From NCBI GenBank assembly GCA_029204225.1, contig CM055095.1, positions 40,664,141-40,728,140 of the forward strand: a stretch of 64,000 nucleotides of DNA, read 5' to 3'. The notes under the pieces are model-generated. The model was not told where the DNA came from. It did no database searches and saw only the letters and a list, made by a program, of their open reading frames with translations. A program made the translations under genes and the position numbers. The stretch comes from Diphasiastrum complanatum (taxonomy: Eukaryota > Streptophyta > Lycopodiopsida > Lycopodiales > Lycopodiaceae). Positions 16,061 to 58,526 of this stretch are shown here, piece after piece (within the stretch, counting starts at the first letter, position 1; the number at the start of each line of letters is the position of its first letter).

Positions 16061-16450
16061 TTATTCTCTAAGATCCACCAGAGGTCTTTCGAAGGGAAGT
16101 GTGACGGGCTTTGGTTTGATGAGAATGTCTCTTCTATAACCTTTCCAAAGAACCTTTCCAACCTCCTTTGGAGATAAGACCACTGCACCATTGGGGACCC
16201 CATTCACTGCGAACTTGCTCATGAGATTAGCTCCTTGGTATTCGTGGATGTTAAGACGACGCAGCTGCTGGTGCAGTGCTGGGTGGCGCAGAGCAGAGTA
16301 AATCATGTCAGGATTGTCAGATGATAATAGAGAGGACCTAGCAGCGCGGCTGGCTACCCGGCTTGCGACTCGCTCGATTGATTCAGTTCGACCAAGACCA
16401 TAAGCACCACCATAAACTTTTGATGCACTGCCTATGAACGACGCTCCATT
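16061..16450 (-). pseudogene. Succinyl-CoA ligase beta subunit, 5' fragment
   Basis: Minus strand. The frame is open from 16450, just after a TGA. It encodes an Arg/Ser/Ala-rich stretch resembling a mitochondrial presequence (RVASRVASRAARSSLL). From the ATG at 16306 follows QQLRRLNIHEYQGANLMSKF, the hallmark N terminus of the beta subunit of the TCA-cycle enzyme succinate-CoA ligase (ATP-grasp family). Homology continues through AVNGVPNGAVVLSPKEVGKV (one extra Gly relative to the family) to about 16151, then is lost. No further exons (for example GGRGLGTF) were found nearby, and no upstream in-frame ATG exists. Probably a captured or orphan first exon; a real first exon with a distant continuation cannot be excluded. 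Confidence 0.75.
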
Positions 16451-20190: not shown

Positions 20191-21652
<1,462 letters not shown>

Positions 21653-21689
21653 CTCAGTTCCTTACAACCGACAGACTAGAAAAAGAGCT

Positions 21690-21930
21690 CAATCAAGCAG
21701 CCAAATGAAATTTTTTAATAAAAGCAGCACCCTTCCAACTTATCACCTGACAATTATATAAAATGGATGCTGACGATATTATTTGCCGATGCACTTATAA
21801 GTTTGAGATACATCTTATCTTATCTCAAGCGCATGAAGGTATTGGTGGCGGTCACTGTTAAAAAAAACATGTACGAGGGCAATTATTGCAGTCTCTCATC
21901 CTATTTAAGCACCGTAAAGATGAAGTTTTT
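21690..21930 (+). pseudogene. Ty3/gypsy integrase zinc-binding scrap
   Basis: Continues the element above in shifted frame: YKMDADDIICRCTYKF and LSQAHEGIGGGHC correspond to the H2C2 region at the integrase N terminus (AHEGxxGGH). The core DDE region is not present. Confidence 0.7.
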
Positions 21931-21989
21931 TTTTTTAAATAATTGTTCATTCAGAACATATTCATAGGGCGAAGCATTTTGAAAAAGCC

Positions 21990-24618
21990 GATATCGATTT
22001 TACACGAGAGAACAAGTGCTTTAGAGGAAAAGATCAAATAGGCACGCGTTGATTAAATACTCTAGTACGACGAATCGGATATCGGATCAGCGCGTCCATC
22101 CAAAAAAAAAAATTCAACTTGGACTATGCACGTTGATTCGCTTCAACGTTGGAATGTTGCGTTCCAATATATTTTTAGTGCGTCTCAGATATCGGATCAG
22201 CGTCTCTGGGAGAAGAAAGTGATTTTTCCCTTGGACTGCATGCGTCCAATCGTTATTGCAATTTTTTTTTTTTTGAAAATTGTCAAAATTATTTAACGAC
22301 ATTATGCATGATCAAAGCTTGATTTAGTAGAGTCTTCATACTGTCCAAAGCTAGGAAGAACATATCGAGTCAAGCTCTGATCATTCATATACCTTCCAAT
22401 ATCAGTTCAGCGTGCGAGAATAGCTCCTCTGGTTTAAACGTGCAGTATATGCGTGTCGATTCCCTATTGGATGAAATAATGGCGTTTGAAATTTTTCGAA
22501 TTATAATGATTGGATGTCAAAAAAGGTTGGACATTTATAGCATAATCTTGTCATTTTATGAAATTAATTGTAGATGTGACCATACTTTTGTAGAAATTAA
22601 GCCATATCAACTAATCATTGTCATGACTGATGTATCTTTAATTGGATTTGATTGACAAGCCTCTGAATATCTCAAAGTAATCATCAATGTAATCGAAGCC
22701 TCAGAATTTCAAAAGACCACTTATGCAATGATTTCAATGCACTATATATACAAATGGACGATGCTCAAATTTTTTGCTTGAAGTTCTTATCGTTCTCTAC
22801 TTCCATGCGATATCGATTCAACGCGCCCGAAGCAGCCTACCTACATTCCGCTTTTACTCGCGCGCACCGTATCAATTTGGTCTGAGTTTAGATATCGGTT
22901 CGACGCGCTCGACCTGACTTCTGATCTTGAGTTCTCCTTCATCGCGTTGATATGATATTGGATAATAATGACACAGACTAAGCAAACAACATGAATCCAC
23001 CTTGGTGGAATCCCAATCACAGGAGGGCGTCAGGGTAATCCACAACCACTGCCTCGTCCACCACCACCTCCTCCTAGGCCAAGGGGCAGATGAAGGACCC
23101 TCCCTAACTGAAGGATATTCGGAAGCTACAGAAGACCAATAATCTTCTGATTCCGAAAGCTCACATACAGAGATCCATCAGACAGGTTACAAGAAGTCTA
23201 TCTGCAGATGTGAGATGGACTGTAACGGCAATTGAGACGCTGCACACTGCATATGAGGATTTCCAAGTGAAATTTTTTTCAGATACTATTGTTGCAGCTG
23301 TCCATGCCAAGAGGGTGACCATCATGCCCAAGGATTTCAACATTGTGTTCAGGCTATTGGACACATATGATAAATTTGCAGAGTACTTTAGACCAGCTCT
23401 TTCGTCTCCTCCAAAACAAGATGCGGAAAAAAGAAAACGAAAGCAATCTCAACCATCCCGGCTTGTTTTTCGAGTACAGAGCGGGAGTGTTTCAAAGAAG
23501 AGGAGGTCTCGTGACCCTCTTGATAAAGCGAGGGATTTTTCAAAGCCATCTCCTCTACATGTGATTCTAACTGCTGCACAGTCTCCTTCTTCTCCTCCTA
23601 GAACTCCATCTCCGTCTTCTCCTACTAAATCTTCCTCTCCTAATAAATCTCCTCCTCCTTCAAAATCTCAGTCTCCTCCTACCCTCACAAATATTAGTTC
23701 CCCACCTCCTATTCTAGAAAATGATTTAGATGATTTTGTAAATGTAAAGGTAGAATCAATTTTAAATGACAATTCTTTTACTGGTTTATCTATATTACTT
23801 CCTCCACCCCCTACACTTGCCTTTGTAAATACTCCTCAATATGCACAATATGACCGATATCTTAAATCTTTAGGTCCTCTATACAGTTTTAACATGCCGA
23901 AAACTAATGCTGATCTTCCTCTTTCTAAATTAGATACAGGTGAATTAGAAAGTAGGATAAAATGCTAGGGAACAATGTAGGAGGGGGTCAATTCAGTACT
24001 GGATGGAGTTTTTCCAAACCCCACTGTCTATAGATGTAGCATTGTTTCTATTTCAATTCATGGCTGTATTTGATTTCCCTTATTTCAAAAGTCTGCATGA
24101 TGATATGCTCCAATACGTTAGACTGGGGACTCCAATTCTCATGCTCCCATACATAACAAAGTAAGTAAATTTCTATCAGATTTCATTAAGTTGAATTTTT
24201 TATATGAATTTTGATCACATTCATTTTCATAAATTTATTGTTTTTTGCAGTGATCATTGGAGCTTATATGTGTTGTGCTTATATGTCAATGATGAGGGAG
24301 TGTGTAATCCAGTTTGTTTAAAAATGAACTCTATTACACACACACACACACAAAATTGCAAGGAGCCATATCCAGAAAATACTGGAACTCTTTCCAGTAC
24401 CACATGCAAAAGCATATACGAAACTGAAATTTGTTGATGCAAAGGTAAAAAAATTTCAATATCAGTCCGACGTGCCCTTGTAGTTATTGCTTGGTTTTTT
24501 TATATATTGTGCACGCGCTGATCTGATATTCAAACAATATTTTTTGGATATCGGTTAAACACGCACTTGTTTCCGTTGTAGATTTTATTATAACCTCTTG
24601 CGCGTTGATCCAATATTA
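21990..24618. repeat. Cluster of GATATCGGTTCAGCGCG-like motifs, alternating orientation
   Basis: About 14 copies of a 17-20-bp motif, most in alternating orientation. Forward (GATATCGG/ATTCAGCGCG-like): 21990, 22077, 22188, 22397, 22807, 22891, 24457, 24546. Reverse (CGCGTTGATC..ATATT-like): 22042, 22127, 22858, 22943, 24511, 24598. Spacing within pairs is mostly 30-60 bp. Four copies lie in one intron (24445-24668) of the H3-Ulp1 locus and the rest upstream of it. No known element type was recognised. Between about 22420 and 22800 nothing else is seen. Confidence 0.7.
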
Positions 24619-25043
24619 CATAGTGTTAAAATTTGGTTACTAACTTTCGTTTATATTGGATACCGCAGTCCTCCCAGCAGGTTGATTCTGTCAGCTGTGG
24701 TTGGTATACGATATGCAATGCCAAACACTTTTTCAATTGGCTTGCACTACAAGATGGACTTCCCAATCTAGAAGTAGTAATCTTAGATTAATAACATTTA
24801 ATTATGTTTTTATTTTTTTTCATAATCACATTCCTATAACTAATCTTTGATTAATAACATTTAACTGTGTTTTTGTTTTTTTAGTTTAAATGCCCAAAAG
24901 TCTCCCCAATGGAGATAATGCACTTCAGGCAGGAGACCATAAGGCTTGTGATCGAAAATTCAAATCCACTTGCAATGGCAGCGTATTCTCCACCCACGCT
25001 ATTTCCAACTGGAGAAATGGATGTAGAGATCATAGAAAGTTGA
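22991..25043 (+). pseudogene. Histone-H3-fold / Ulp1 (C48) peptidase fusion locus
   Basis: From 23108 an open frame aligns without gaps to about 86 residues of histone H3: DIRKLQKTNNLLIPKA, then VRWTVTAI, and HAKRVTIMPKD in the last helix. The canonical H3 tail is absent. A Ser/Pro/Lys-rich linker (SPSSPPRTPSPSSPTK) follows to 23966. After a one-base frame slip the frame continues YWMEFFQTPLSIDVALF to a donor at 24160. Exons 24251-24444, 24669-24773 and 24885-25043 follow with GT-AG introns (90, 224, 111 bp). They encode DHWSLYVLCLY, QQVDSVSCGWYTICNAKHFF and PMEIMHFRQETIRLVIE before TGA, matching the His and Cys/Gln regions of Ulp1-type SUMO peptidases; the Asp position appears to be Asn (LKMNSI). 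Upstream, from ATG 22991, a Pro/Arg-rich frame is broken by stops, and TAA lies at 23105. Probably a decayed host gene or transposon-encoded gene. Confidence 0.75.
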
Positions 25044-25489
25044 TATTGATAAAAAGTAGGTCTCCCTTGATGTGGATGAGACACACGTACAATTTTTTTT
25101 TTTTTATATTTACATTTTTTTGTGGTTGTTCTTACGTGTTTGTTTTCCTGTTATTAATTCAGGTTATTATTCATTCATCTTCAATTTTTATGATTTTCCT
25201 ACATGCTCGTTTTTCATAGCCTTGGTCTGCCTTGTCTTTACCATGGTTTTTTTTTGATAAGTTCAGAAAAAATGATCTGATCGAGCCTTTGCCACAGCCA
25301 ATCCAAACATGTGACATAAGTTCACTTAGATTTTTTGCGACAAAGCTTTGATCAGATCATCTTCTGAACATATCCAAATATGCCAAGACAAGGACAATAC
25401 AGACCAAGGCAAACCAAAAATACAACCGATATATCTGAGACTTCAACAAGGGCAACCATCGATTCAATATATGATTGTAGTGGTCACTG

Positions 25490-25640
25490 GAGTTCAAGTG
25501 ACCGAAGATCTCCCCAATGGAAATAATGCATTTCCTGCAAGAGACAATAAATCTTGTTATCAAAAACTCGTATTATCCAGTTGCAATTACATTGTGTTCT
25601 GCACCATGGAAATGGAGATCATAGAAATGAAAGAGCCTCA
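25490..25640 (+). pseudogene. Duplicated last exon of the Ulp1-like gene
   Basis: Frame from 25505 reads KISPMEIMHFLQETINLVIK, clearly a copy of the last exon at 24885-25043 (KVSPMEIMHFRQETIRLVIE). The rest diverges and stops, while MEMEIIE reappears in another frame. Intervening DNA (25044-25490) has no other exon. A local partial duplication. Confidence 0.7.
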
Positions 25641-25869
25641 TAGAAAAAATGATTCATATATTTTCAAAAATGATGTATACAAAAAATTGTATTAGATAAT
25701 ACAAAATTCCATTATTCATAATCTATGGATCTTCAATTTTGATGGATGTTCCAATGTCTTTGCATTTTATATGCTCTTCCTGCTTTACTCTTACATGCAC
25801 AAGAGAAATTGTTTTAGTTAATATATTTTTTGAAATTGATTCACTTAGAAATAGAAAAAAAAAAAAATT

Positions 25870-26160
25870 TCATATGGCATAACGTACCTTTACACCATTC
25901 AATCGAAATTGATAGTACTGAGATACATCAAATTGCAACATGTCTAGTTTTGATTGAATGTGATTGAGACACCAATCTTTCTCAACCACAACCATGGCAA
26001 GAATGTTGTCATTTCTTTTCACTGTTATCTGAAGTTGCTCTTGAGGGTTTATACCAAAATCTTGATCAAGTGGCTTCCAAATATTTTTGCATTTAATCCA
26101 TCTTCTATAATACAGCAGCAAAGTGACCATTTGTTTTTCGATGTGATATCTAAATTTCAT
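25870..26160 (-). other. Unrecognised 96-codon frame, possibly an exon
   Basis: Minus strand frame with QLQITVKRNDNILAMVVVEK, DWCLNHIQSKLDML and FRLNGVKVRYAI, a regular strand-helix-strand-like pattern. I do not recognise the family. Upstream on the same strand (26280-26200) another frame reads CKDFSAEIIVELLDDG, which may be a preceding exon. Transposon origin or chance cannot be excluded. Confidence 0.3.
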
Positions 26161-26812
26161 TGATGAGTAACATACTCTGCGGTCAACTTGCTGATTTTGT
26201 TTTGTATCTCATCCATCATCCAGCAACTCGACAATTATTTCAGCACTGAAGTCCTTACAAATAAACATTGTTTTCGTTCTCCGAACATTGCATTTGAAAA
26301 AAAAATCAACAAAAATAGTAAAAGGTAGATACCAACTTAATCTATCATTCTTTGATCCAGTGCTACATTTTAGCTAGGATCCTACAAGAAGATTTTGTAA
26401 ATGCCTTGAGTAGGTGTTTTACTCGAAGAATAAGAGGATTTCTTATCCATGGATTCATGCATGAATGAAAGACTAATTAGATGTCCCCTTCAATTATTGA
26501 TGCACTTTTGAAATTGAGATTTTTAGTCTTTTTCTCATGCATGAATGTTGATGAAGCATATGTTCGTCAAACATATGCTTGAGTTCTAGACTATGCACCA
26601 TTCCATTGATAGTATACTTACTAAATCAAAATAGAGTTTCAATGGCTTGGCTTTCAACAAACGCGGTTCATCAAAAAGTTTGCTATACGTCACGGGATAG
26701 GAGCTATTCATACAATTGTTGTATGATTGTCTAATATTTAATAAAAAATCTCTCATGTATCTCCAAACGATTGTTTAGATTGATGCATTGAAAAGTTATT
26801 CGAAGCTTTTGA

Positions 26813-26947
<135 letters not shown>

Positions 26948-27438: not shown

Positions 27439-27633
<195 letters not shown>

Positions 27634-54900: not shown

Positions 54901-57763
54901 AAACAACAGAATACCAAGCAAACTTAAATAACCATTTTTTTACCTTGCTTACTACATACTAGAATGCTTACGTTCATAACGATAAATACCTTTGATGACT
55001 AATCAGTAGCAAAGGAACTACAATGATATAACAATTTGCTCTATTTGGTCATCTTGTAAATAGCTCAACAGGAATGTCTGTTACGGTTTATTAGACAAAT
55101 GCAAAATTTGCTAGTACAATGATTCAATAAAACCAAAAAACTATCAAATTTCGATACTATATTATGATGCATTACATGGTCTAATTGATTTCGAAATGCA
55201 AAAGTACCAAAAATACAACTACCCAAAAAGTGGAGTGGATGACTTTGTTAGCTCAATTGTCCATTATTATCAATTGGGATAGAATTCAAACCATCCTTGC
55301 AACAAGTGCCTAGTTTTAGCAAGTAAATGCATACGAAACCTCAAGACAAGACGAATAGGGCAAAGATCACCCAACCTTGCCCAAAACCCAAGAGCCGCTA
55401 TAAGTTCCCAATCCAACAAGTTACAATAAGATGACTTGCACTCAAGGACTTAAAAGTAATTACCGGAGCCCTCAGCCAATAATTAAAGTATTGGCTCACA
55501 GATCAACATAGGCCCTCATAAATGTGTTATAATTATGTCTCTAAACACACCCTAGATAAGGTCAAACCAGTATCTTTTTTTCATACTAGGACCATAAAAG
55601 TGAGACTAAAGCTAGAAAACTAAAAATCTAAATGACCACTAAAGGAGGAGTTGGCATAAGTCAAAAGTTGTGCTAAAATAGGTACAATATTGCAATTACA
55701 AAGAGTGTGTTAATGATATAAGTGACCATCAATAGGAAACAGACCCAACGAGGAATAAATGATGGACACAAAACTTTTTGATGTACTTTGAACATTTATT
55801 CTAAGCATTAAAGGAGAAGGTCAAAGTGGTCATGTGCCATAATGGAGAGTGCAAAAACAAAGGCAAGGTCAACATGAGAGAGCATTTACAAAACTTCTTT
55901 TTGGAGACAATTATTTGAAACAAAGTTATTCAAAAATAAATATAGCCTTGAACTATCTCTTCATAAATCTTCTATGTAAGCAAGTACTATCAAAACTAAT
56001 GATAAAGGTGGCCAATGATGAACACGATACTAGTGATGCCAAATCAAACACACAATCAATATAAATAGCATTTGTTTCAAAGTCAATTTTTCATCGAAGT
56101 TTAAGTGACTGAGAGCAAGACCAACAACCAAAATAGACTTGAGCTAATCGCAGGCTAACTAATATGTAGAAAAAAAATATATATGTAGAATGTTAATGTA
56201 GAAGTGTAATAAAAGGAGAGGCCATTGTGGCAATAGAGCACGAAGATGTAGCTAGACCCAATAACAAAAATTGTTACCATCAATAAGTGCATTCTTCCAA
56301 GATATGGATGGATTTGACTTTAGAGGAGTTGACTCTAAAAGCACCTACTCTAATTCAACACAAAAACCCCAAGGAACTCAAACTAAAAACTTGTCAAGAA
56401 AATTATACTCGAATCAATAGACCGGCTGATTACCTTGATTCTAGAATGTTGTTAAACAACACTTTCACCATGTCAGCTCCCCGCTTCACATAAAATACAC
56501 TTCTAATATGACGATCAATAGTAGTTGGAGAACCATAGTGCACGCCGTTATCAAATAAACTTTGCAGTGTTTCATGCTGTTTTGAAGCCTCCAAGAGATC
56601 TTCGACCTATGGAAGCATCCATTGCACATTGAATGAGCAAAAACTTGCAAGGAAGCGAAAGTAGTTTTGAGCAAACGTCAACAGAGTAGCAGGAAAAAAC
56701 TTATTTCACTGGCTAACTTATGCTTTTTATTGTCCACATGTCGAAAACATAATTACCATAAGAAACGAAAAGGAATGCCGTTGCAAACATGCAAACGTTG
56801 TTTGAACTATTTGACAAAAAATCCTCGCATATACACGAAAGAGTAGAATAGAGTAGATAATGAGAGCTGTTGAACTATTATGGTAAACTTAGTCGCACAC
56901 ATGGAAGAGTAGAATGGAATACATAATGCGGGTTGTTGAATTACTATGGCAAAAACTGGCCGCATAAACATGGAAGAGTACATTTGAGTGCATCATAATG
57001 CAAGCTGTTGCAGTGTTATGGCAAAATAGCATGGAATAGACTAACATTACTATGGCAAAAATTAGTCGCATACTCAAGGAAGAATATAATGGAATACATA
57101 ATGCGATCTATTGAGTTATTATGGCAAATAATAGTCGCGTATAAAATGCGAACTGTTGAATTATTATGGCTAAAAGTAGCTCCATGCAAATAGAAGAGTA
57201 GAATAGAGTACAAAATGCGAGTCGCTAAATCATAATGAAAAACTAGTCGCATACACATGGAAGATTAGAATAGAGTTCATGATGCTAGCTGGTGAATTAT
57301 CATGGACAAATATAGTCGCATACAATACACATGGTTGAGGATAAAGAACATAATGCGATCTGCTAAATTATTAAGGCTATAAGTAGTCGCATACAAATGG
57401 AAGAGTACTAGCATACAGTAACTAATGCGAGCCATTGAATCATTATAGCAAAAAAATGGAGGACTAGAAGAGTACGTAATGCAAGCTGTAGATATATATG
57501 GAGAAGATTAGTAGCATACTTTTGAAAGAGTATAACAGAGCAGATAATTCAAGAAATTTGCTCGCCTTGGAAACGTAGTCTTGTTCTGCGAATTTGAAGG
57601 CGATACCGAGGCGGCCGAGCAAGACCGAAATCCTGCTGCAAGCTTCTATCAGCGAGTCCAACCTCAGATCTACATTTCCTGTCTGCTCGAATTCACGCGC
57701 CAGTTTATCGAATGCTTCTGCCAAGGATCGTAAGGGACGATCTTTGCTGCTACATGGCGCCAT
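48890..57763 (-). CDS. ACD11: ACD11-type sphingolipid transfer protein (GLTP fold)
   Basis: Four exons on the minus strand join in frame: 57763-57566, 56606-56434, 50585-50440, 48996-48890, 624 nt, giving 207 residues plus stop; Arabidopsis ACD11 is about the same size. ACD11 is a cytosolic ceramide-1-phosphate/phytoceramide-1-phosphate transfer protein whose loss triggers cell death. Visible signatures: DRPLRSLAEAFDKLA, LGRLGIAFKFAEQDYVSKVE, VKRGADMVKVLF, FAPYHTWAIRKAV. Head-group residues: Asp62, Lys66, Arg101 and His144 correspond to Asp60, Lys64, Arg99 and His143 of ACD11; the Arg103 position is Tyr105. Start: ATG 57763; a GTG six bases upstream is ignored. Introns 2 and 3 are GT-AG, intron 1 appears GC-AG. 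No stop or frameshift, so probably functional. Confidence 0.92.
50440..50585 (-). CDS. ACD11: ACD11 exon 3
   Basis: 146 nt after acceptor TTTTGTAG. Encodes HLSLRECASKAYEEVFAPYH and WAIRKAVTAGMYTLPSKGHF; ends GAGG|GTAAG. The conserved His of APxHxWxIRK is His144. Confidence 0.92.
51058..51720 (+). other. Unrecognised 220-codon frame inside ACD11 intron 2
   Basis: Plus strand, antisense to ACD11. Preceded in the same frame by 67 codons from 50858 and one TGA. Product includes SGKQLWTSQLWTSKIGINNL with a short internal duplication, an acidic/basic middle (HHQHQEGVSMMKKKDIKEPE) and no known motif. Sequence after 51733 stays partly open. Likely an old retroelement or pseudogene insertion in the intron; function unknown. 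Confidence 0.35.
52000..54612. other. Intronic DNA without recognised features
   Basis: Part of ACD11 intron 2. AT-rich, no motif recognised on either strand. Repeated CATGTCCCTCAT/CATGTCTCTT-like phrases occur around 53590-53940, perhaps a decayed low-complexity repeat. Confidence 0.5.
54613..54997. repeat. 192-bp tandem duplication in ACD11 intron 2
   Basis: Two copies start GCCATCCCT(A/G)AAACACAAG at 54613 and 54805 and share TCGAGCCATTATTCA, GTGTTTCGATGAGATA and CAAACTTAAATAACCATT. They differ by scattered substitutions and a T-run length. Not coding. Confidence 0.88.
56434..56606 (-). CDS. ACD11: ACD11 exon 2
   Basis: 173 nt after acceptor CTTCCATAG. Begins VEDLLEASKQHETLQ and ends in the first two bases of an Arg codon at donor AAG|GTAATC. 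Contains the RHIRSVFYVKRG stretch that lines the lipid head-group site. Confidence 0.9.
56825..57560. repeat. Minisatellite in ACD11 intron 1, unit about 65 bp
   Basis: About ten imperfect units of the pattern AGTCGCATACA, ATGGAAGAGTAGAATAGAGT, ACATAATGCGA and GCTGTTGAATTATTATGGC, with some units shortened. The array fills most of intron 1 and reaches within a few bases of the GC donor at 57565. Strand-independent; short frames through it are meaningless. Confidence 0.85.
57566..57763 (-). CDS. ACD11: ACD11 exon 1
   Basis: 66 codons, MAPCSSKDRPLR to QDYVSK. Ends AAG followed by GCGAGC, a GC donor. Using the GT three codons earlier would also stay in frame but would delete Val-Ser-Lys, including the conserved Lys, so the GC donor is preferred. 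Confidence 0.9.
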
Positions 57764-58000
57764 CGCCACCCTACTCTCTCCTCGATTCTGTTACTTGCTC
57801 TTTCTCGCTCTCTCTCTCTCCCCCGTCTCGCATAGAGCTCGAGCAATTATAGCCCGCCACCGTTGGATGTTTCGTATTTTGCCACGTGTCCGACATCGAA
57901 TAGGGTCTTGATTCCAACACAGGTGGCGTTCAAGCGGGCGGGGTAAAGTTGAGTTGTTGCTGTAGTGGAGGGAAGAAAGAGTTCAATTTTTGACAAGACC
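57764..58000 (-). promoter_or_regulatory. ACD11 upstream region / 5' leader
   Basis: Immediately upstream of the ATG, minus strand is GA-rich (plus strand CTCTCTCTCTCCCCCG at 57805-57825), a common 5' UTR composition in plants. A GCCACGTGTCC sequence at 57882-57892 contains a G-box CACGTG. No clear TATA box could be fixed. Confidence 0.45.
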
Positions 58001-58379
58001 AAATGTACACGTGTCGCGCATTAGCCGAAAAGGCAAAGTGGCAATACCATTGTTTTTATTTTCTAATATTCAATGAAGATTTGATTCCTCAACTTATGTT
58101 GAATAATAACTCCTTTTTGGCCCTTAAAAGTTAGGAATCTTTTGGGCTTGGAGCAAGAATGGTGGACACTCGAAAGGGACCATGCATTGGTGATCGAGAG
58201 TGCCTCTAAACATTTTCACGGGCTCAATTGAGCAAGCTAGGGTTGGTAGCAAAAATGGCAAACTAAAGTTAGTCTCATGACATAGGAGCAAAATTCATTT
58301 TCTTCGTAACAGTTGAGAGGTACAAATACATGCCGCTCAACCAATGTCTTTTGGCCACATTGCCATGGCTACAATGCAT
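58001..58379. other. Short intergenic stretch
   Basis: No coding motif. Lies between the ACD11 upstream region and copia RT debris. Confidence 0.5.
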
Positions 58380-58526
58380 AGCAAATCTCGAAGTTGTTAC
58401 AAGCTACCTGCGACCTAAAATGTAAAAAGACATCTATATGCTACAACCTAAAGGATACATTCTCGAAGGTATGAAGCATCATGTTTGTAAACTCCATAAA
58501 GCACTTTATGGCTTGAAGCAATCAAC
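58380..58526 (+). pseudogene. Copia RT fragment (family A)
   Basis: Decayed RT; the clear part reads KDIYMLQPKGYILEGMKHH then KLHKALYGLKQS, matching 9770-9860 and the minus-strand RT at 35.6 kb. It jumps directly into an LTR at 58527, so everything from the YVDD box to the polypurine tract was deleted. Confidence 0.85.

Follow-up and report, generated by a model that had tools for sequence, protein, structure and literature searches.

Did a land plant once encode a protein in which a histone fold was joined to a protease that removes ubiquitin-like modifiers? The question is raised by a locus at 21925–25042 (+) in a stretch of 64,000 nucleotides, here called the window, from the lycopod Diphasiastrum complanatum (assembly GCA_029204225.1, contig CM055095.1, forward-strand positions 40,664,141 to 40,728,140). 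The locus is probably the relic of a single gene, in which an H3-like tail and an H3-class histone fold were followed by a basic Ser/Pro linker and by a protease end resembling SENP8/DEN1. The reading as a relic of a gene with a histone fold and a C48-like end is supported, because fold and linker share one open frame, the motif of the protease is restored by splicing, and the start of an H3-like tail lies upstream. Confidence that this was a real fusion gene is slightly reduced because open reading frames (ORFs) without relation to it reach scores in the 50s with the core of Ulp1, used as a C48 control.

Architecture of the Locus

The features of the gene and its flanks, all on the forward strand, are as follows.

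21925–22967 (+), 5′ noncoding region, where ten of 14 sites of a 17-bp motif are found (CpG observed/expected ratio, 1.42); left edge set by eye from the end of a gypsy relic
22743–22749 (+), TATA-like box TATATAT, a possible promoter by consensus match only
22968–23105 (+), H3-tail-like N terminus MTQTKQTT*IHLGG...RPRGR*RTLP, with TGA at 22992 and 23091 (asterisks) and a frame slip before 23108
23108–23359 (+), H3-class histone fold of 84 codons, with CENH3-like touches and an H3-length loop 1
23360–23960 (+), Ser/Pro/Lys linker, continuing the open frame of the fold, with basic clusters KRKRK and KKRRSR that resemble nuclear localization signals by eye
23958–23968 (+), frame break separating histone and linker from the downstream part, with TAA in one frame and TAG in the other
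23961–24160 (+), exon part before the protease signature, QYWMEFF...MLPYIT, which matches nothing
24161–24250 (+), intron 1, GTAAGT...TTGCAG, GT-AG
24251–24444 (+), protease exon with the catalytic-His motif DHWSLYV; Asn takes the place of the SENP8 Asp, and the (AC)n run at 24336–24352 contains a slip
24445–24668 (+), intron 2, GTAAAA...CCGCAG; the other four motif sites lie here, and the CpG ratio is 1.75
24669–24773 (+), protease exon with QQVDSVSCGWYTICN, carrying the catalytic Gln and Cys
24774–24884 (+), intron 3, GTAGTA...TTTTAG, GT-AG
24885–25042 (+), last exon, ending ...DVEIIES and a stop
25491–25628 (+), repeat of the last exon in degenerate form, 75% identity over 115 columns

The frame at 23108–23965 (+) runs for 286 codons without a stop. 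A first-pass annotation, made from the letters of the stretch, had described a Ser/Pro/Lys linker continuing from the histone fold, and the linker does lie in the same frame, which stays open for about 200 further codons until the break at 23958–23968. Beyond it the reading continues in the downstream frame, also on the forward strand, which three GT-AG introns interrupt. The last exon and some of its 3′ flank are duplicated in tandem (24883–25042 and 25491–25744); because the copies are only 75% identical over 115 columns, the duplication is probably old.

The Histone Part

In a Pfam profile search, residues 1–83 of the frame match PF00125 with 67.4 bits (E 1.8e-18), well above the gathering cut-off of 26.4 bits, over profile positions 39–121 of 122, that is, from αN to α3. 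The score rises to 73.1 bits when the tail is included. The best solved chain in the PDB is H3mm15, with 63.1 bits in a gap-free alignment. Judged by its sequence, the start of 23108–23965 is unambiguously an H3-class histone fold. The gap-free H3-like fold with about 36 identities that the first-pass annotation had aligned by hand, and for which it named PF00125 as the check, is thus borne out: 36 of 84 columns are identical to the core of plant H3.

The character of the product appears to be H3 in part and CENH3 in part. Against reference cores, identities are 36/84 columns for plant H3, 40/86 for Arabidopsis CENH3 and 33/85 for rice CENH3, with alignment scores of 178, 184 and 132, which do not decide between H3 and CENH3. 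Alignment to Arabidopsis CENH3 requires a two-residue gap in loop 1 and alignment to rice CENH3 one gap, whereas none is needed for H3; the longer loop 1 of CENH3 is therefore not a property of this gap-free frame. The RWT and LLIP touches and the H3-length loop 1 of the earlier description are all present. The locus shares with plant H3 and CENH3 the tail start, the αN to α3 region and AxHAKRVTIMPKD, and with CENH3 in particular LLIP, RWT and KDF. It departs from both in showing only 33–40 identities in 84–86 columns, in lacking the CENH3 loop-1 insertion, in its lysine-poor and proline-rich tail, and in the addition of a long linker and a protease.

A structure predicted from a three-row alignment places four helices at the positions of αN, α1, α2 and α3, the last extending to residue 98, with modest confidence (mean predicted local distance difference test score, pLDDT, 65). 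A Foldseek search of the PDB with this model gave 176 matches at E ≤ 0.001; the best 50 of them are chains of histone-containing complexes, with a template-modelling score of about 0.6 and a root-mean-square deviation of about 5.4.

The gene appears to begin upstream of 23108, where the first-pass annotation had placed its start. The ATG at 22968 opens MTQTKQTT*IHLGG, which aligns with the H3 start MARTKQTARKSTGG. The score of this tail start, 29, was equalled in 2 of 2000 simulations and in none of 204 other segments of the window. The first 14 residues of the tail fit H3; the remainder is proline-rich and lacks the context that K9, K14, K18 and K27 have in H3. The ATG lies 140 nt before the residue equivalent to L48; the corresponding distance in H3 is 144 nt. 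A protein search with tail and fold together yielded no relative at E ≤ 1e-6 among only 6 candidates, an absence that is weak evidence; so small a number suggests that the database searched is poor in plant histones or that histone words were filtered.

The Protease Part

Splicing at 24161/24250, 24445/24668 and 24774/24884 rebuilds DHWSLYV and QQVDSVSCGWYTICN: DHWSLYVL is assembled across intron 1, and QQVDSVSCG follows after intron 2. The earlier reading of HWSLYVL and QQxxxxxSCG spread over exons with clean GT-AG sites is sustained by these three introns. The best PDB chain for the spliced frame is SENP8 (E 0.0094, residues 103–149 of 216). Against a SENP8 core taken partly from the PDB alignment, the frame scores 82, compared with 25.8 ± 4.1 for 2000 shuffles, none of which scored as high; among the window's 279 single ORFs with 60 or more residues, the highest score is 41.

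The points of resemblance to the deneddylase SENP8 (DEN1, NEDP1), a member of peptidase family C48, are HWSLxV, KLxFVxxK, Gln six residues before the Cys, and SxxCGxYxICN. The locus differs in the position of its protease behind a histone, in Asn at the Asp place, in a longer hairpin and in the missing PF02902 match. The similarity to SENP8 begins at HW (about 24255), and the preceding 200 nt of exon (23961–24160) have no match.

Counting against the protease half, the spliced frame has no match to PF02902, the C48 profile, at E ≤ 10 in Pfam. The core of yeast Ulp1 scores 31, a value equalled by 296 of 2000 shuffles and not significant. That same core gives 58 and 55 with two ORFs of the window that are unrelated to it; values in the 50s can therefore occur in this DNA without homology. 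Finally, His, Gln and Cys stand at the aligned catalytic places while Asn stands at the Asp place (aligned by hand to SENP8), so that the catalytic His/Asp/Gln/Cys set is incomplete in this degraded copy. Of the Ulp1/C48 domain of SUMO type proposed in the first-pass annotation, the relation to C48 stands, through SENP8, and the Ulp1 label is not the most apt; by profile the protease is weaker than had been claimed. The domain is best described as C48-like, apparently of the DEN1 kind, and formally outside C48, because of the absent Pfam match and the Asn at the Asp position. SENP8/DEN1, a NEDD8 protease, seems a better label than SUMO-type or Ulp1.

Decay and Former Coding State

The copy is dead, a relic, because it carries two TGA codons (22992 and 23091), two slips (one just before 23108, one in the (AC)n run at 24336–24352) and one combined stop and slip at 23958–23968. 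At this last place TAA stands at 23958, TAG at 23966 in the histone frame, and a slip coincides with them. The TAA, the one-base slip and the dinucleotide slip had been noticed before and are found at 23958 and in the (AC)n run; the tail start at 22968 with its two TGA codons and slip, the motif cluster and the CpG pattern are additions to the earlier description.

Whether the histone core once functioned as protein can be judged from simulations in which a reference H3 decayed neutrally to the same identity as the core. The BLOSUM score of the core, 178, compares with 135.5 ± 13.2 under neutral decay and was attained in 3 of 3000 simulations. Freedom from stops (213/3000) and an equal number of positive-scoring sites (319/3000) are only mildly unusual. 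One measure thus argues for a past as a working protein, and the two others point weakly the same way.

A Motif Array and a CpG Pattern

The noncoding parts of the locus contain a 17-bp motif, approximately RATATCRRWTCARCGCG, in both orientations. With up to three mismatches, GATATCGGWTCARCGCG occurs 9 times in the window against 0.10 expected, all at 22078–24617. A weight matrix adds five sites, giving 14 in the locus, of which 10 lie in the 5′ region (21990–22959) and four in intron 2; elsewhere in the window no site exceeds 10 bits by the same matrix. The weakest site, at 22452, is borderline because its 10.6 bits are close to that level. All 14 copies are noncoding and none is in an exon, an arrangement with a probability of 2.7e-5 under uniform placement; for the strict nine it is 0.0012, the safer figure, because the weaker sites came from a matrix trained on this region. 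Exact matches to the motif in viral contigs (27 contigs, one match each) were taken as chance.

CpG is retained in the 5′ region (observed/expected ratio 1.42) and in intron 2 (1.75). The exons, at 0.13–0.41, are depleted; the gypsy relic stands at 0.67 and the 3′ flank at 0.49, and the median over the window is 0.415. Among windows of the same length elsewhere, 0 of 1166 reach 1.42 and 1 of 2416 reaches 1.75. Introns 1 and 3 have no CpG and are uninformative, because they are GC-poor and about one CpG is expected. From this pattern it seems that methylation was long absent from the DNA bearing the motif and present in the gene body; the ratio is a sequence proxy for methylation, and a host promoter could look alike. 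A second stretch of high CpG, at 56500–58500 (1-kb windows up to 1.03), has no motif site of at least 8 bits.

A Possible Anti-Silencing System

The confined array of motifs and the pattern of CpG are what a mobile element with an anti-silencing-like system might show. The VANC proteins of Arabidopsis VANDAL elements bind short motifs that have accumulated in the elements' own noncoding regions (PMC5735166), and they cause a local loss of CG methylation there (PMC10398659). In the KIU versions there is an Ulp1 domain, the role of which is described as open (PMC13317346). A VANC/KIU-like mode of working is proposed here because the locus resembles these systems in a domain of the protease class, a noncoding motif array and what may be a trace, in sequence, of local hypomethylation.

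We propose tentatively, at less than even probability, that the fusion gene belonged to a mobile-element family and that its product acted like the VANC/KIU anti-silencing proteins. On this view the fusion protein would be retained at the 17-bp motif sites within the noncoding DNA of its own element. There the histone half would form a pair with H4 and become part of nucleosomes or cap them, and the protease half would remove NEDD8 or SUMO, as a ubiquitin-like modifier, from histones or silencing factors. The outcome would be that the motif regions are kept unmethylated. A bolder form of this proposal, which we regard as unlikely, is that a plant mobile-element family encodes its own H3/CENH3-like histone fused to a NEDD8/SUMO-type protease as a local anti-silencing weapon; nucleosomes would then be built at the motif arrays and the silencing marks of the host erased locally.

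The likeness to VANC and KIU lies in a short motif accumulated in noncoding DNA (14 copies, all noncoding), provided that the locus is indeed an element. VANDAL elements are Mutator-like elements (MULEs) without terminal inverted repeats. The locus differs from their VANC/KIU systems in a motif of 17 bp, against 8–9 bp, in its H3-fold N-terminal part and in a protease nearer to SENP8/DEN1. It is not filed as a member of VANC/KIU: besides this histone part, neither DUF1985 nor a nearby transposase was found. Among other mobile elements, hAT elements in Pseudocercospora and relatives captured histone H3 (PMC6710886). The common feature would be an H3-like coding sequence in a possible mobile element; those elements contain an H3 copy, whereas the locus has a divergent H3 with a protease and no hAT domain was found in it. 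Ginger1 and Mutator elements encode Ulp1 domains and so exemplify an Ulp1-class domain in a mobile element (PMC2836005); in Ginger1 the Ulp1 domain is joined to a transposase, and none was found at the locus.

Several results weigh against an anti-silencing element. Pfam detects no DUF1985 in the read-through protein and no transposase, of MULE type or any other, in six frames of 18.5–23.0 and 25.0–29.5 kb. The window holds no second copy of the gene except the repeated last exon; no convincing terminal inverted repeats lie within 21.9–25.8 kb; and comparison of 21841–21990 with 25043–25500 for a target-site duplication returns only poly-T matches of 9–11 bases. No fused protein was found among 7524 candidates, nor among 1547 at E ≤ 1. 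The first of these searches gave 2 full-length matches, in Trichogramma and Hypsibius, with histone domains in otherwise unrelated long proteins; they are silent on the fusion. Part of the CpG excess is the motif's own, because the motif itself contains CpG: with the motif masked, the ratio falls to 1.0 in the 5′ region, which 8 of 1166 windows elsewhere reach, and to about 0.92 in intron 2, from only 3 CpG. CpG-rich 5′ regions are ordinary in host promoters. Binding of the motif by the fusion protein, on which the mechanism would depend, is purely conjectural.

Host Gene, Capture, or Chance

An origin as a host gene is nearly as likely as the mobile anti-silencing account, and so also somewhat unlikely in absolute terms. 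An H3/CENH3 variant of host chromatin would have gained a DEN1-like protease domain, the locus would be a dead duplicate, and the motif array would be regulatory sequence of the promoter and intron. The TATA-like box upstream, the CpG-rich 5′ region, the introns, the H3-like tail start and the lack of a detected transposase or element ends are all as expected of such a gene. However, it would in our judgement be unusual for a promoter to have a 17-bp motif repeated 14 times, in either orientation and with four sites in an intron; the locus lies among copia and gypsy relics; and no fused homologue occurs among the candidates searched.

It is improbable that an element transduplicated an H3-type gene and a protease gene separately, in the style of pack-TEs (transposable elements that carry gene fragments), and that the mosaic never functioned. 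Precedents exist in the uptake of H3 by a hAT element in fungi (PMC6710886) and in plant MULEs documented with captured Ulp1 (PMC13317346). A mosaic without function would not readily account for a core in which 48 of 84 sites depart from plant H3 and which has no stop, for a linker frame that is still open, or for substitutions milder than under neutral decay by the BLOSUM measure (178 against 135.5 ± 13.2, 3/3000), the other two measures (213/3000, 319/3000) being weaker.

Chance juxtaposition of an old H3-like pseudogene with the relic of an unrelated protease gene is likewise given a low probability. The two frames are parted by the break at 23958–23968, the protease signature appears only from about 24255, nearly 300 nt past the break, and in known proteins each domain stands separately. 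Against chance, the histone frame includes about 200 open codons of linker and ends only at the break, after which the downstream frame picks up without a change of strand.

An integrated remnant of a large DNA virus is very improbable: such viruses can carry both histones and Ulp1-like maturation proteases, but the locus has three GT-AG introns, a SENP8-like protease sequence, retroelement surroundings and no relative in viral contigs by a pattern search able to find close relatives only (histone frame, 14 matches and 0 confirmed; protease frame, 0 matches). The histone-frame pattern scan of prokaryote genomes gave 104 matches and 0 confirmed.

Surroundings in the Window

A relic of gypsy-type reverse transcriptase and RNase H (20780–21920; PF17917, PF17919) ends at the left edge of the locus, its right end being set by eye; Pfam gives no sign of its continuation past the locus in 25.0–29.5 kb. 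Just 3′ of the gene, at 25210–25419, is a foldback of about 210 bp resembling a miniature inverted-repeat transposable element, in which 44-nt arms (70% complementary) surround 38-nt arms (74%). Simple-sequence runs of (GA)n and (GT)n(GA)n, all very long, lie at about 20631–20750, 26813–26944 and 27443–27632. The frame at 16064–16450 (−) may be the first exon of a gene for the succinyl-CoA ligase beta subunit, of which we take its LNIHEYQG to be characteristic; the PF08442 match (E 0.027) is below the cut-off.

A 112-codon frame at 25873–26208 (−) that resembled ubiquitin by eye was dropped as a ubiquitin-like gene. It has no Pfam match, shuffles do as well in 528 of 2000 cases against ubiquitin and, with a NEDD8-like sequence as reference, in 1257 of 2000, and its model is all-helical with a pLDDT of 56. 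Rfam and tRNA scans of the window returned nothing.

Implications

Among the literature matches listed, none describes a fusion of a histone with a deconjugating protease, and the protein searches gave none either. If intact copies exist, they would represent selfish DNA that uses a subunit of the nucleosome as a targeting domain against host silencing, and they would bear directly on the role of the Ulp1 domain in KIU elements. They would also exemplify a histone-based route for bringing an enzyme to chromatin. If the locus instead derives from a host gene, that gene would add a new type to the H3 variants.

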